Origin: Actinoplanes liguriensis
GTDB lineage: Bacteria > Actinomycetota > Actinomycetes > Mycobacteriales > Micromonosporaceae
Reading direction: 5' to 3'
Assembly (NCBI GenBank): GCA_000715855.1
Contig: KL571238.1
Coordinates: 14,879-25,698, forward strand
DNA length: 10,820 bases
Below, in pieces: positions 1,224 to 10,820 of this stretch. Position numbers and translations under genes: made by a program. The notes below the pieces were generated by a model that was given only the letters and a program-made list of their open reading frames with translations, searched no databases and was not told where the DNA came from. Every line of letters begins with the position of its first letter. The stretch's first letter is position 1.

Positions 1224-1739
1224 ACTTTCGCACTCCCTCATGTGTCGGTCCGCCCCAGGCCATCAGCATCGGGCAACGCGGAGGTGTCTGTCCGGTTCTG
1301 ATTCGGACAACACGGCACTACGGGAGATCGATGAATACGAGAAACCGTCAATAGCCGGATATGCCGCTCCCGAGGCGTTCATAATCATTGCGGCGTGGTG
1401 TGTTTGCGCAGCTCAAGGCACCTGTTCATGTTCGGTGCCGATGGACGGAGGAGAAAGCGCGTGCCGACCGACGTGGGCGTTGATCAAGCGCCGCGGGGCC
1501 GGGAGAGCTGAGGTCCATGTTCTCCCCGTGGCCCTGGAGTCCCGTTCGGCCAAGGTTGGGTGACCGCTCTGCGACTGCTTCCGGTCGTGAAGGTTCCTAT
1601 GCCCGAAATACGCGTTCCGCCGAAAACACTCCGATATGCCGGTTAAATTACGGATGGCTACGCCTCACGTGGACCTTTGGTCCGGTGTTTGCGCTGCTGA
1701 GGGCCGGGTCAACCGGTGCCCCCGACCGCCCAAGGTGCG
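1224..1739. other. Divergent intergenic region without a clear gene
   Basis: This stretch of roughly 515 bases separates phoA (leftward) from the riboswitch and repeat-protein gene (rightward), so it should hold both promoters. The composition is less GC-rich than the flanking genes, with AT-richer patches near 1325-1395 and 1600-1660. Open frames through it have no family resemblance and no typical actinobacterial coding pattern. One 16-codon frame (1461-1511) has a strong ribosome binding site and is reported separately as a finding. I could not assign a -35/-10 pair or a PhoP box with confidence. Confidence 0.6.
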
Positions 1740-1823
1740 GTACCCGAACAGGCAACCTCGTCGGGTGACGAGGACGCAAAGCCAGGGGCCTCCCCGCTGG
1801 AGGTTGCCCAGCCGCCGAAGGAG
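1740..1823 (+). ncRNA. Probable cyclic di-GMP-I (GEMM) riboswitch, somewhat off-consensus
   Basis: The segment contains GGCAACC (1751-1757), a hairpin CCTCGTC-GGGT-GACGAGG (1756-1773) and then GGACGCAAAGCC (1772-1783). This order and the near-invariant GGACGCAAAGCC string are the hallmark of the GEMM/c-di-GMP-I aptamer. GGTTGCC at 1802-1808 is exactly complementary to GGCAACC, as expected for the helix that closes the aptamer core. A GC-rich third hairpin lies between (about 1782-1800, GGGG against CCCC and CCAG against CTGG). The stretch ending GCCGCCGAAGGAG resembles the usual 3' flank, but its order relative to GGTTGCC differs from the consensus as I know it. The element ends in the AAGGAG ribosome binding site of the downstream gene, which suggests control of translation. 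The class assignment is from motif recognition, not from a covariance-model search. Confidence 0.72.
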
Positions 1824-1833
1824 ACAGGAAGAG
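1818..1833 (+). promoter_or_regulatory. Ribosome binding region abutting the riboswitch
   Basis: AAGGAG at 1818-1823 lies 11 bases before the ATG at 1835, and a second purine-rich block, AGGAAGAG, at 1826-1833 lies right next to it. The first block is the 3' end of the riboswitch-like element. Folding of that element could therefore expose or hide the Shine-Dalgarno sequence. The CCTCC at 1789-1793 is a possible pairing partner for it. This pairing is inference from complementarity only. Confidence 0.55.
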
Positions 1834-1834
1834 A

Positions 1835-4800
1835 ATGCGTCATCGACCAATCCAAACGGCGTCGCATGAGCGAGTGCCGTTCACATTCTGGGGACGTAAC
1901 CGAATCCGGCAAGTGATGACGTCTGTCGCGGTGTCGGCGGTGGCCCTAGTCCCGGCGACGTTCATCGCGTCACCGGCGTACGCCACTGTCATCGCCGGCC
2001 TGACCATCAGCTCCCCCGTCGTCAATGAAGGGGGGACGGCCAGCTTCACGGTGACTTACAGCGGTTCAGCAGCGTCGGCGAATGACATCGTCTTCACTAC
2101 GGGCGGCGGCACGGCGACCAACGGCGGAACCGACTACACCACCAATCCGACTGTCCCCGGCGGCAGTGGTAGTCCTGCGACCACCATTTCTGCAGGAGGT
2201 TTCACTGGCACGGTCGCCAACGGTGGTCCCAACACCATCGTGGTGACCGTTCCCACGACTGCGGACTCTTCGGCTGAAGGCCCTGAGACGTTCAATTTGA
2301 TCGCCACGGAGGCGAACACCACCTATGTGACTACCGCGACGGCGACGATCGTCGACTCGAAGGTCAACAATCTCACCGTGACCCCCGCCAGTGTCTGGGA
2401 GGGGGGAACGGCCAGCTTCGCCGTGACCTACACCGGAACCACCTCGTCGGGGAGCATTACCTTCGGTACGGCTGGGAGCGCTCAGACCCCGACCCTCACG
2501 GCAACCAGGGGAACCGACTTTAGTGCGACGCCGAGTGTCGCCAGCTACACCTTCCCTGGAACTGCCGCGGGCGGCACCAACACCATCACGGTGACGGTCG
2601 ACACTACGGCCGACGGCTCCAGCGAATCCGACGAGACGTTCCAGCTGACCGCCATGAGCTCGACCGGCACGGCGACCGGGACGGGAACGATCTGGGAACC
2701 CGCCAACAACCCGATCGTCCTCAGCGGAGCGACGACGGTTGCGGAGACGGCGACGGGCGGCGTCCAGCAGTCGGTGACCGTGACCGCCACCCAGGTCAAC
2801 CCGCAGCCGCACGATGTGGTCATCCCGGTGAAGACCGCGGATTTCGCGGGCACCAGCTACGCCACGGACATGGCGACCTCCGCGGGTGGCGCGAACCGGG
2901 ACTACTCCGCGCTGGGATCCGACGCGACGATCACCATCCCCGCGAACAGCACGGTCGGGACCACCACCGTGCAACTCTGGGATGACAACTCGGACGAGCA
3001 GGACACCCAGTACTTCAACGTTGCGGTGGACGCCACCCGGACCGTTCTCGGCGGCGCCGTGGTCGGCGGCCAGGACACGGTGAAGATCGGGATCAAGGAC
3101 GACGACGCCACGCCGACGGTGGTTGCCGGCGACGCGGCAAAGGTCACGGAAGGTGCTCCGCTCATCTTCCCGCTGACGCTGAGCAACCCCTCGGAGAAGG
3201 GGGCCAACGTCTCGGTCGCGGCCGCCGGTGTTGCCGCCGGCAGTGCGGCTGCGGCCACCGTCGGCACGACTGACTCCGGGACCAACGATGCCGTCTGGAC
3301 CACGTCGACGGTGACGTTCCCGGCGTACGCCAAGACCACCAACGTCCTGATCCCCACCACGACGCGTCCGAGCCAGTTCGAGGGCCCGGAGAACGTCCGG
3401 ATCACGATGAGCAGCCCGGTGAGCGCCACGCTCGGCACCCCGGCGACGGGCAACGGCGTCATCACCGACACCGAAGCCGGCCAGACACTGCAGTACAGCT
3501 CCCTGCATGACCCCTCGGGTCCCGGCGCGTTCAACAATGGGACACGTTCCTGGACCGAGGGGAACTCCGGTCCGGTCGAGAAGAAGATCTACCTGAAGTT
3601 CAACCCGACCGGAAATCTGCCGACGACGCTGAACTACACCTTCGCCGATGTCACCGCTACGAACGGGGTGGACTACATCGGTAAGGCCGGAAGTGTCTCG
3701 GTCGCGGCCGACGGCACGCTCGCGGAGATCCCGGTGACCATCGTCGGGGACCGGATCGCGGAGGCGAACGAGACCTTCAACCTGGTGGTGACCGACCCCA
3801 ACAACGTCGCCAGCGCGGCGTCCACCGGCGAGATCCTCTTCACCATCAACGACGACCCGGACTCCCCGCCGGTGTGGACCACCGGCGATGTCACGGTTGC
3901 CGAGGGGAACAGCGGTACCTCGCTGGCCCGGATTCCGGTCACTCTGAACGCTCCGGCCGGAGCCGACGCGACCTTCACCGCCGCGTTCACCCCGGCGGGT
4001 AGTGCCGTCGACGCCACCACGACGACGGCGGGCACCAACGACTTCGACGCGCCGACGGACTCGACCGTCACCGTCAAGGCAGGCTCGACCAAGGCCTACT
4101 TCGAGGTGCCGATCAACGGCGACACGGTCTACGAGCGGGACGAGAGCTTCAACGTCACGTTCACCCCGCCCGGCAGCGTGACCGCGTCGGCCGACACCGC
4201 AACCGTGTCGAAGGTGACCATCACCAACGACGACATGCAGCCGAAGATCACCTTCGCCGCGGCCAGTGGCACCGAGGGTGGGCAGGTGACGGTTGTTCCC
4301 ACCGTCGTCGGAACCTCGCAGTACACGTACGACGTGAGCTTCTCCGCCGGTGCCGGGACCACCGACCCGGCGACAGTCGATGCCGACTTCCAGATTCCGG
4401 CCACGCTGTCGTCGCCCACCGTCAACATCCCCGTCGGGTTCGAGGGGCCGCTGTCCAAGCTGCCGTCTCCGTACACCGTGCCGGCGTTCACCCTGTTGAA
4501 CGACGACATCGACGAGCCGACCGAGACGTTCACCGTCACGGCGAACGAGGCCAGTGCGGTCCTGCAGGGCTTCACCACGTCGTCCACGACCGTCAAGATC
4601 GCTGATGACCCGCTGGACACGCCGCCGGCGGCTTCCATCGGTGACGTCACGGTCAACGAGAAAGACAAGATGGCGGAGCTTCCGGTCGACCTCGCCTTCA
4701 CCGGCGAGGCCACCTCCACCACGCAGACCGTGACCATTCCGTACTACACCGCGGATGGCTCGGCCAAGGCGGGCAAGGACTACGCGCCGGTCACCAGGGG

Positions 4801-5521
4801 CGTTCTGACGGTGCCGCCGGGCACGATGAAGGCCACCGTCAAGGTGCCGATCATGGATGACCCGGACATGGAGTCCGACGAGACCTTCAGCGTCCGGCTC
4901 GGCACTCCGCAGCCGGTGGGCGCGCAGGTGATCGGCGGCGAAGCCACCGTCACGATCAAGTCGGACGACACGAAGCCGCCGATGGCGCCGACCCTGATGG
5001 TCACCGGCCCGGCGAAGGGTGCCGGCTCGGTCATGCTGTCCGGCAAGGCCACTCCCGGCACCGACGTCTGGCTGTCCGGCGCGGCTCTGCCCGAGATGGA
5101 CAAGAAGGACTTCAAGAAGCTCGGCTCGGTCAAGGCCGACGCCATGGGCAACTACAAGTTCCCGGCGCGGATGATCACCTCGGGGTGGGCGTTCGCGGTC
5201 GAGACCTCGGCCGGGTCCACCTCGGTCAAGACGGTCAAGCTGACCCAGGCGCCGATGCTGACCGTGTCGACGACGAAGGGCAAGCTGGCCGCCACGGTGG
5301 GCGGTAACCCGAAGGCTGCCGGCCAGACGGTCACCATCCAGCGCAAGAGTGGCAGCAAGTGGGTGACTGTCGGCTCCGGCAAGACCACTTCGACCGGCTT
5401 CCGGGGCTCCTGGAGCATCAAGTCGGGCACGAAGCTGACGGTGCGGGCCCTGGTCTCCGGTAACGCGGGCATGGGTATCAACGCCGGCTACTCCGCCACG
5501 AAGACCATCACCATCAAGTAA
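1835..5521 (+). CDS. Large secreted Calx-beta repeat protein
   Basis: This is a 1228-residue exported protein, probably an extracellular adhesin or matrix component. Residues 1-50 form a signal peptide with a long basic start (RNRIR at 21-25), a hydrophobic core at 27-45 and cleavage after SPAYA. About eight Calx-beta-like units of 110-130 residues follow, near 54-175, 178-288, 293-424, 427-546, 560-674, 680-800, 803-924 and 931-1045. Each runs from an EGG/EGN strand, usually through a G-x-DY or similar turn, to an E-ETF or DETF strand and often ends in DDD or NDD. Such acidic turns bind calcium in the family. Residues about 1050-1139 and 1140-1228 look like two further beta-sandwich domains (GKATPGTDVWLSG; VTIQRKSGSKW). 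No LPXTG, C-terminal membrane helix or catalytic domain is visible. Start 1835 is preferred because AAGGAG (1818-1823) and AGGAAGAG (1826-1833) precede it; ATG at 1916 is a weaker alternative. The riboswitch upstream suggests c-di-GMP control. The ligand or partner is unknown. Confidence 0.9.
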   Translation: MRHRPIQTASHERVPFTFWGRNRIRQVMTSVAVSAVALVPATFIASPAYATVIAGLTISSPVVNEGGTASFTVTYSGSAASANDIVFTTGGGTATNGGTDYTTNPTVPGGSGSPATTISAGGFTGTVANGGPNTIVVTVPTTADSSAEGPETFNLIATEANTTYVTTATATIVDSKVNNLTVTPASVWEGGTASFAVTYTGTTSSGSITFGTAGSAQTPTLTATRGTDFSATPSVASYTFPGTAAGGTNTITVTVDTTADGSSESDETFQLTAMSSTGTATGTGTIWEPANNPIVLSGATTVAETATGGVQQSVTVTATQVNPQPHDVVIPVKTADFAGTSYATDMATSAGGANRDYSALGSDATITIPANSTVGTTTVQLWDDNSDEQDTQYFNVAVDATRTVLGGAVVGGQDTVKIGIKDDDATPTVVAGDAAKVTEGAPLIFPLTLSNPSEKGANVSVAAAGVAAGSAAAATVGTTDSGTNDAVWTTSTVTFPAYAKTTNVLIPTTTRPSQFEGPENVRITMSSPVSATLGTPATGNGVITDTEAGQTLQYSSLHDPSGPGAFNNGTRSWTEGNSGPVEKKIYLKFNPTGNLPTTLNYTFADVTATNGVDYIGKAGSVSVAADGTLAEIPVTIVGDRIAEANETFNLVVTDPNNVASAASTGEILFTINDDPDSPPVWTTGDVTVAEGNSGTSLARIPVTLNAPAGADATFTAAFTPAGSAVDATTTTAGTNDFDAPTDSTVTVKAGSTKAYFEVPINGDTVYERDESFNVTFTPPGSVTASADTATVSKVTITNDDMQPKITFAAASGTEGGQVTVVPTVVGTSQYTYDVSFSAGAGTTDPATVDADFQIPATLSSPTVNIPVGFEGPLSKLPSPYTVPAFTLLNDDIDEPTETFTVTANEASAVLQGFTTSSTTVKIADDPLDTPPAASIGDVTVNEKDKMAELPVDLAFTGEATSTTQTVTIPYYTADGSAKAGKDYAPVTRGVLTVPPGTMKATVKVPIMDDPDMESDETFSVRLGTPQPVGAQVIGGEATVTIKSDDTKPPMAPTLMVTGPAKGAGSVMLSGKATPGTDVWLSGAALPEMDKKDFKKLGSVKADAMGNYKFPARMITSGWAFAVETSAGSTSVKTVKLTQAPMLTVSTTKGKLAATVGGNPKAAGQTVTIQRKSGSKWVTVGSGKTTSTGFRGSWSIKSGTKLTVRALVSGNAGMGINAGYSATKTITIK

Positions 5522-10805: not shown

Positions 10806-10820
10806 CTGTCTCTTATACAC
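10806..10820. other. Residual Tn5 mosaic-end sequencing adapter at contig end
   Basis: CTGTCTCTTATACAC is identical to the first 15 bases of the 19-base Tn5 mosaic end used in transposase-based library kits. It sits exactly at the last base of the window and interrupts a good reading frame. It is AT-richer than its surroundings. It is best read as untrimmed adapter, not genomic DNA; the five codons it adds to the membrane-protein gene are not real. Confidence 0.93.

Follow-up and report, generated by a model that had tools for sequence, protein, structure and literature searches.

A predicted class I c-di-GMP riboswitch before a large exported Calx-beta protein gene in Actinoplanes, and a competing helix in its leader

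Introduction

Is the gene of a giant exported Calx-beta repeat protein in Actinoplanes liguriensis controlled by a riboswitch for cyclic di-GMP (c-di-GMP), and if so, how? The question concerns a stretch of 10,820 nucleotides (positions 14,879-25,698 of contig KL571238.1, assembly GCA_000715855.1; hereafter the window, by which the whole stretch is meant), where a leader with an aptamer of the c-di-GMP-I class stands directly before the gene of a 1228-residue protein. In filamentous actinomycetes the output of c-di-GMP is known mostly through proteins such as BldD and RsiG-WhiG. Actinoplanes possesses WhiG and lacks RsiG (PMC8325347; this and the other papers, given by PubMed Central identifier, are cited from parts of their text). 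We consider it probable that the leader ends in a class I c-di-GMP riboswitch, which sets the translation of the large exported Calx-beta protein.

A class I aptamer in the leader

An earlier note on this DNA had read a GEMM-like core in the leader and named a covariance-model search as its check. The core is present as described (GGCAACC at 1751-1757, a hairpin, then GGACGCAAAGCC at 1772-1783), and the Rfam scan of the window assigns positions 1741-1819 of the forward strand to RF01051 (c-di-GMP-I) with 48.7 bits against a cut-off of 35 (expectation value, E, 3e-07), covering the full model from 1 to 87. This is the sole gathering-level Rfam match of the window. At looser thresholds, a scan of 1500-2000 gives 51.8 bits for RF03167 (c-di-GMP-I-GGC), under its cut-off of 59. 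The c-di-GMP-II class matched in neither scan and was dropped as an identity for this reason. The features concerned are as follows, all on the forward strand.

1741-1819 (+): c-di-GMP-I aptamer (GEMM-I), by RF01051 score
1743-1746 (+): 5' strand of P1, CCCG; proposed pairing with 1816-1817 and, over an AA bulge, with 1820-1821 in the Shine-Dalgarno sequence
1751 (+): equivalent of ligand contact G20, by Rfam alignment (role: PMC4744006, PMC10333796)
1752-1777 (+): P2 hairpin with loop GGGU, by Rfam alignment, orthologue pairing and reading of the loop
1778 (+): equivalent of ligand contact A47, by Rfam alignment (role: PMC4744006)
1781-1812 (+): P3 hairpin with CCUCC/GGAGG, by Rfam alignment and orthologue pairing
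1815 (+): equivalent of ligand contact C92, by Rfam alignment (role: PMC4744006)
1818-1823 (+): Shine-Dalgarno sequence AAGGAG, from the window sequence; of the 82 genus copies, 59 have GGAG right behind the aptamer
1835-5521 (+): exported Calx-beta repeat protein of 1228 residues, from ATG at 1835 and Pfam; signal region at about residues 1-50, judged by eye

The c-di-GMP contacts of Vc2, which Vc1 conserves as well (G20, A47 and C92; PMC4744006), are thus all present in the window as G1751, A1778 and C1815. Position 20 is a determinant of ligand selectivity (PMC10333796; PMC9262584), and a G there prefers c-di-GMP over cyclic AMP-GMP (cAMP-GMP; PMC10333796). The C-G pair between P2 and P3 is present by position as C1775 and G1806, its pairing being putative. 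Among 53 distinct orthologues, 98.4-100% of the cells in P2 and P3 are paired, and P1, P2 and P3 combined reach 97.3%, with three pairs that changed on both sides (11 of 500 shuffles as high). Where distinct orthologues have letters on both sides, the outer C.G/U.G pairs of P1 persist in 52 of 52 and 52 of 53 of them, and the inner pairs, as aligned, in 43 of 52. From its model score, its contact residues and its conservation, the window leader is predicted to hold a true c-di-GMP-I riboswitch.

The last two bases of the aptamer are the first two of the AAGGAG, which bears out the reading in the earlier note of an aptamer ending in the ribosome binding site (1818-1823) of a 1228-residue exported repeat protein (1835-5521). 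Its further claim, that the riboswitch directly controls the giant Calx-beta gene, stands as regards the place of the aptamer on the leader of this gene and an orthologous locus in most of the genus.

Conservation at one locus in the genus

Across 67 genomes of the genus, 82 RF01051 matches were found in 60, over the cut-off in 59. All 82 loci were fetched with 2.5 kb before and 7.5 kb after them (less at contig ends); searches over more than 40 genomes used stricter filters, by which weak matches are lost. The copies divide into arm A (59 of 82), in which GGAG lies directly behind the aptamer, and arm B (the other 23), and the genome of the window has one of each. In 59 of 59 arm-A copies an ATG 13-16 nucleotides past the aptamer end opens a frame of 704-1478 residues, and Calx-beta was found in all 49 of these proteins that were scanned. 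Relatives of the two ABC transporter genes of the window (at least 50% identity) occur within the fetched stretches at 57 and 56 of the 59 arm-A loci, and of its TetR gene, at the same identity, at 46. In a protein search, Calx-beta protein relatives appeared in 66 of 67 genus genomes, many of these matches being other Calx-beta proteins.

Two divergent aptamers (G020 and G064) escaped the strict search and were recovered when the leaders were inspected, a looser RF03167 scan confirming them. Together with two degenerate ones (G046 and G056) and arm A, they make up 63 orthologous leaders. The mean pairwise identity (1711 pairs, 59 loci) is highest in the aptamer (0.87), followed by the Shine-Dalgarno stretch (0.77) and the first 90 coding bases (0.69), and falls to 0.57 in the adjoining upstream part of the leader, 0.48 beyond that and 0.51-0.52 in deeper parts of the gene. 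G20, A47 and C92 are all kept in 57 of the 59 arm-A aptamers, that of the window included. The P2 loop was read as GNRA, by regular expression, in 51 of the 63 leaders; the other 12 comprise eight non-GNRA loops and four unparsed ones (two degenerate leaders and two with long loops). The arrangement that the earlier note proposed to look for in related genomes, an orthologous aptamer with a Calx-beta gene, thus recurs in most of the genus. These comparisons predict a single locus, shared by most of the genus, at which a c-di-GMP-I riboswitch precedes the gene of a giant secreted Calx-beta protein.

Beyond the genus, a sample of 300 genomes of the family gave matches in 60, all from this one genus of 44, to which 67 of the 300 belong, and no RF01051 match in the 233 sampled genomes of the other genera. 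Samples of the class and the phylum gave matches in 41 of 296 and 155 of 396 genomes. Among 12 class loci viewed by eye, L170, from another family, stands before a protein like that of arm B, and type IV pilin-like proteins come next at four.

Mode and sign of control

In the mechanism proposed here, ligand binding would close P1, P2 and P3, and as the proposed 3' strand of P1 shares GG with the Shine-Dalgarno sequence, ribosome access would be the output. The free window RNA could form a helix of nine base pairs, GGCAACCUC.GAGGUUGCC, using G20 and breaking P2 and P3. With this helix available in place of P2 and P3, the leader is probably bistable, and its balance would be expected to shift toward the aptamer fold when c-di-GMP is bound. 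In favour of the scheme, the genome of the window contains 109 stretches matching GGDEF, some of which are fragments of one domain, and thus a rich set of c-di-GMP enzymes. The further elements of this scheme are the following.

1641-1651 (+): conserved promoter-like motif GGTTAAATTAC with a possible -10 element TAAATT at 1644-1649; from a motif search, its promoter role being putative
1751-1759 (+): 5' arm of the competing helix, GGCAACCUC, including G20; from complementarity and fold energies
1800-1808 (+): 3' arm of the competing helix, GAGGUUGCC, fully complementary to the 5' arm and including 1806, the G of the interhelical pair; from complementarity and fold energies

In the form GGTTANAKTRC, the motif precedes 53 of the 59 arm-A aptamers, starting 78-115 nucleotides ahead of the aptamer in 52, and was met in 10 of 11800 mononucleotide shuffles. 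Its conservation suggests a transcription start upstream of the aptamer. Scans of 1240-2000 revealed neither a sigma-70 promoter consensus nor a terminator-like site, and transcription termination was dropped as an output on the latter ground. Control is most likely translational, by ribosome access, since no terminator is seen, the Shine-Dalgarno sequence abuts P1 and only 15 nucleotides separate the aptamer from the start codon. Actinomycetota lean to translational platforms (PMC12452182).

Two other structures were considered in this context. A hairpin sequestering the Shine-Dalgarno sequence with codons 6-10 (GGA.UCC, in some folds CGCCG.CGGCG as well) appears in the minimum-energy folds of many leaders whose proteins start with MRHRPIQ, that of the window included, and not in the others among the leaders listed; it was not adopted as a general platform. 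A GCGGY.GCCGC helix rivalling P1 was rejected: 98.1% of its cells are paired, but its covariation is no better than that of shuffles. RNAalifold on the long leader found little beyond the aptamer.

The sign of control was approached by computed accessibility of the Shine-Dalgarno sequence. Forcing P1, in 57 of 59 leaders, gave a mean of 0.54 versus 0.39 for the free RNA in short constructs, and 0.40 versus 0.38 in long ones. Subgroup means in the aptamer and the alternative fold were 0.46 and 0.40 (n=7), 0.61 and 0.53 (n=1), 0.33 and 0.28 (n=9) and 0.66 and 0.52 (n=42). As these means are a little higher in the aptamer fold, we lean slightly to a switch that turns translation ON, provided that it works at all, and under the same proviso grant an OFF switch not quite an even chance. 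The forced-fold gains are small and the single non-GNRA leaders mixed.

A pure OFF switch, in which c-di-GMP closes P1 and blocks translation, so that the protein would be produced when c-di-GMP is low, as in sporangium development for instance, overlaps with the mechanism preferred here, and its probability, which we place somewhat below one half, does not add to that of the latter. Such a switch would fit the near-complete retention of the outer P1 pairs with the Shine-Dalgarno GG among the orthologues (52 of 52 and 52 of 53) and the example of C. difficile (PMC11477304); this GG must, however, be conserved anyway, the average computed accessibility leans weakly the opposite way, and the Vc1-gbpA switch of Vibrio is ON (PMC4744006).

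Several observations weigh against a ligand-driven translational switch that acts through the two folds. Accessibility changes little between them, and among the eight non-GNRA leaders taken singly the aptamer fold is freer in four, equal in one and less free in three; the pairing of P1 with the Shine-Dalgarno GG would, moreover, argue for OFF. P1 lacks both-side changes among the distinct orthologues, and the window aptamer ranks only 74th of the 82 genus copies by E-value. Its P2 loop, GGGU, is not the GNRA loop that docks into P3, which is a peripheral and common feature that the cut-off does not require. No pair of the competing helix changed on both sides, and the 65.4% of its cells that are paired equal the shuffles; the support for this helix comes from a bimodal length distribution and from energies, not from covariation. 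Finally, G046 and G056 keep the protein gene though their aptamers are degenerate, and the switch is therefore dispensable in some species.

The competing helix and two possible alleles of the leader

The uninterrupted helix is nine base pairs long in six of the 63 leaders (the window, G000, and G036, G060, G014, G043 and G046), seven in three (G053, G064 and G020), four to five in three, and three in the remaining 51. Of the nine leaders in which it thus spans seven to nine base pairs, six have a readable P2 loop, GNRA in none, while the loops of G064, G020 and G046 were unreadable by the script. The fold energies, which are model values that leave out ligand and tertiary contacts, follow the same division: the difference, alternative minus aptamer fold, comes to a median of -0.8 kcal/mol (-2.8 to 3.4) for the eight aligned non-GNRA leaders and +12.0 kcal/mol (6.0 to 18.6) for the 51 GNRA leaders, and longer constructs give medians of -5.4 (n=7) and -5.6 (n=1) versus +4.3 (n=9) and +9.4 (n=42). 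For the window the value is -0.9, and -7.4 in the longer construct, so that its two folds would be about equal in computed energy or the rival fold favoured. With a strong competing helix and no GNRA loop, a response of the window leader to c-di-GMP cannot be taken for granted, and the rival fold gained in this strain may alter the response of the sensor.

On a tree of the 63 orthologous proteins, the 12 leaders without a readable GNRA loop are clustered (seven changes, six of them forced; none of 500 shuffles as low), whereas the nine with a helix of at least seven base pairs are not (eight changes, seven forced; 171 of 500 shuffles as low). A single clade of these nine is rejected by the approximately unbiased test (p-AU 0.0004), a label that was chosen after the tree was seen, and G043 lies across the root branch from the window, yet has arms identical to those of the window. 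Repeated origin or exchange of leaders would explain this scatter.

Taken together, we tentatively propose, as a possible though not a probable reading, that the genus carries two alleles of the leader: a canonical aptamer, and the bistable form of the window, in which three allele-specific bases complete a nine-base-pair helix that takes G20, the GNRA loop being absent. Such a bistable leader would work as a c-di-GMP switch whose threshold has shifted; it would have been repeatedly gained or exchanged between lineages, and the helix would have replaced the aptamer in one species.

A different outcome of the same changes, which we hold to be unlikely, is that the window aptamer is losing or has lost c-di-GMP control, that the helix dominates as a plain 5' hairpin and that control survives in the canonical relatives. 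The helix lengths (seven to nine base pairs in 9 of 63 leaders versus three in 51) and the energies, which in non-GNRA leaders equalise the folds or favour the alternative one, in longer constructs likewise, would agree with such a loss, as would the low RF01051 scores, an A47G change in four of the 12 non-GNRA or unparsed leaders, and G046, where P2 and the core are lost and both helix arms are kept with one G.U pair. The window, on the other hand, keeps all three contact residues and the P2 and P3 pairs, and the non-GNRA aptamers are 0.92-0.93 alike among themselves (at 35-70% protein identity) compared to 0.89-0.96 for canonical ones of similar distance, gapped columns being uncounted.

A second aptamer and ligand-position variants

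The earlier note had spoken of a single second-messenger switch. This did not hold, as the same genome has a second RF01051 copy (G000:C12:4732-4806; L001, L087) before a small secreted protein of 143 residues and a signal-peptidase-like one. It belongs to arm B, in which 23 aptamers precede a frame of 130-150 residues whose ATG lies 14-25 nucleotides past the aptamer end. The small protein in the genome of the window has no Pfam match (a fimbrial model at E 0.084 is far under the cut-off), a fold search gave nothing at E 0.001 or better, and its structural model has a mean predicted local distance difference test (pLDDT) of 73. On these grounds a relationship to TasA was not adopted and the protein is called only a small, putatively beta-rich secreted protein. 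Its neighbour, of 691 residues, has DUF5305 and a signal-peptidase-I match of 48.6 bits, just under the cut-off of 51.85.

Position 20 is A in six arm-B aptamers (L039, L041, L050, L084, L085 and L103) and C in five (L091, L094, L098, L099 and L100), which may alter ligand preference. A47 is replaced by G, as in the c-di-GMP-I-GGC consensus, in the orthologous aptamers of four species (L111, L114, L123 and L124) and in one arm-B aptamer (L110). That the window aptamer senses another cyclic dinucleotide, such as cyclic GMP-AMP (cGAMP) or a ligand of the c-di-GMP-I-GGC class, is very improbable: its 51.8 bits against RF03167, the 19 of 20 other genus loci scanned (picked from the best-scoring) that exceed the cut-off of 59, A47G in 4 of 61 arm-A aptamers and the A (6 of 23) or C (5 of 23) at position 20 in arm B point that way, but the window itself is under that cut-off and has G20 and A47, the c-di-GMP type, G20 favouring c-di-GMP over cAMP-GMP (PMC10333796).

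The Calx-beta protein

Pfam recognises Calx-beta (PF03160) alone in the 1228-residue protein, with 135.3 bits against a cut-off of 27, and eight acidic, ETF-like repeat motifs, counted by regular expression, follow one another at intervals of 116-129 residues; cysteines are absent. Two further matches in NCBIfam are far under the cut-off, the better one being a sodium/calcium exchanger model, and the matches to solved structures are Na/Ca exchangers and their calcium-binding domains, to which residues 895-1049 align. Calcium binding is a prediction from the domain. The earlier note had called the protein unanchored; by regular expression alone, no LPxTG was found, and one LAFTG is internal and far from the C terminus. 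The repeats, together with matches to the LapA model in 3 of the 49 scanned relatives, make a secreted matrix or adhesion protein the most likely role. Like LapA and Calx-beta large repeat adhesins, it is a long exported beta-repeat protein; it differs from them in that no retention or anchoring module was recognised in it, and its role as an adhesin is putative. Still larger Calx-beta proteins, with frames of about 2000-3600 residues, are found just upstream of the riboswitch gene in four genomes (G040:C28, G047:C1, G065:C30 and G028:C6).

Relation to known systems

Vibrio and Clostridioides already provide cases of secreted adhesins under c-di-GMP riboswitches (PMC4744006; PMC11477304), and the Actinoplanes Calx-beta locus therefore adds to a known kind of pairing. 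Vc1, upstream of gbpA in Vibrio cholerae (PMC4744006), is likewise a class I aptamer, sits in the leader of a gene for a secreted attachment factor and has the same contact residues, but the protein is of another family and Vc1 regulates positively. In C. difficile, where a class I riboswitch lies upstream of CD2797, class I riboswitches are transcriptional OFF switches (PMC11477304), in contrast to the window, in which no terminator is seen and the Shine-Dalgarno sequence abuts the aptamer. RF03167 shares the overall fold, and 19 of 20 scanned genus loci, picked from the best-scoring, pass its cut-off, whereas the window is under it and has A, not G, at position 47. This riboswitch is not described in the available parts of PMC6828939, PMC11205660, PMC10333796 and PMC8325347, and a term search found neither 'riboswitch' nor 'Calx' in PMC7682106 and PMC13251363; two papers on Actinoplanes SE50/110 (PMC11767292, PMC11626248) contain the word 'riboswitch' once each. 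The literature searched, which took in few subscription papers, held no paper joining Actinoplanes and Calx-beta, and absence in print is not claimed.

If the reading is correct, c-di-GMP would act through RNA on two kinds of secreted protein, which would provide a directly testable effector across most of the genus. The proposed bistable allele of the window is the more interesting point; canonical and bistable alleles of one leader would be natural variants for the evolution of riboswitch thresholds or for riboswitch loss.

Further observations on the window

A divergent alkaline phosphatase gene occupies positions 3-1241 on the reverse strand (NCBIfam 502 bits against a cut-off of 540; Pfam 299 bits), and a relative of it lies within the fetched stretch at 15 of 59 orthologous loci. 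The end of the window, 10806-10820, reads ctgtctcttatacac, behind which the contig continues with a run of N (together G000:C46:25684-25908). We take ctgtctcttatacac to belong to the mosaic end of Nextera/Tn5. This genome has 372 + 343 occurrences of the 19-base adapter, and the assembly thus seems to have been joined through adapter sequence.

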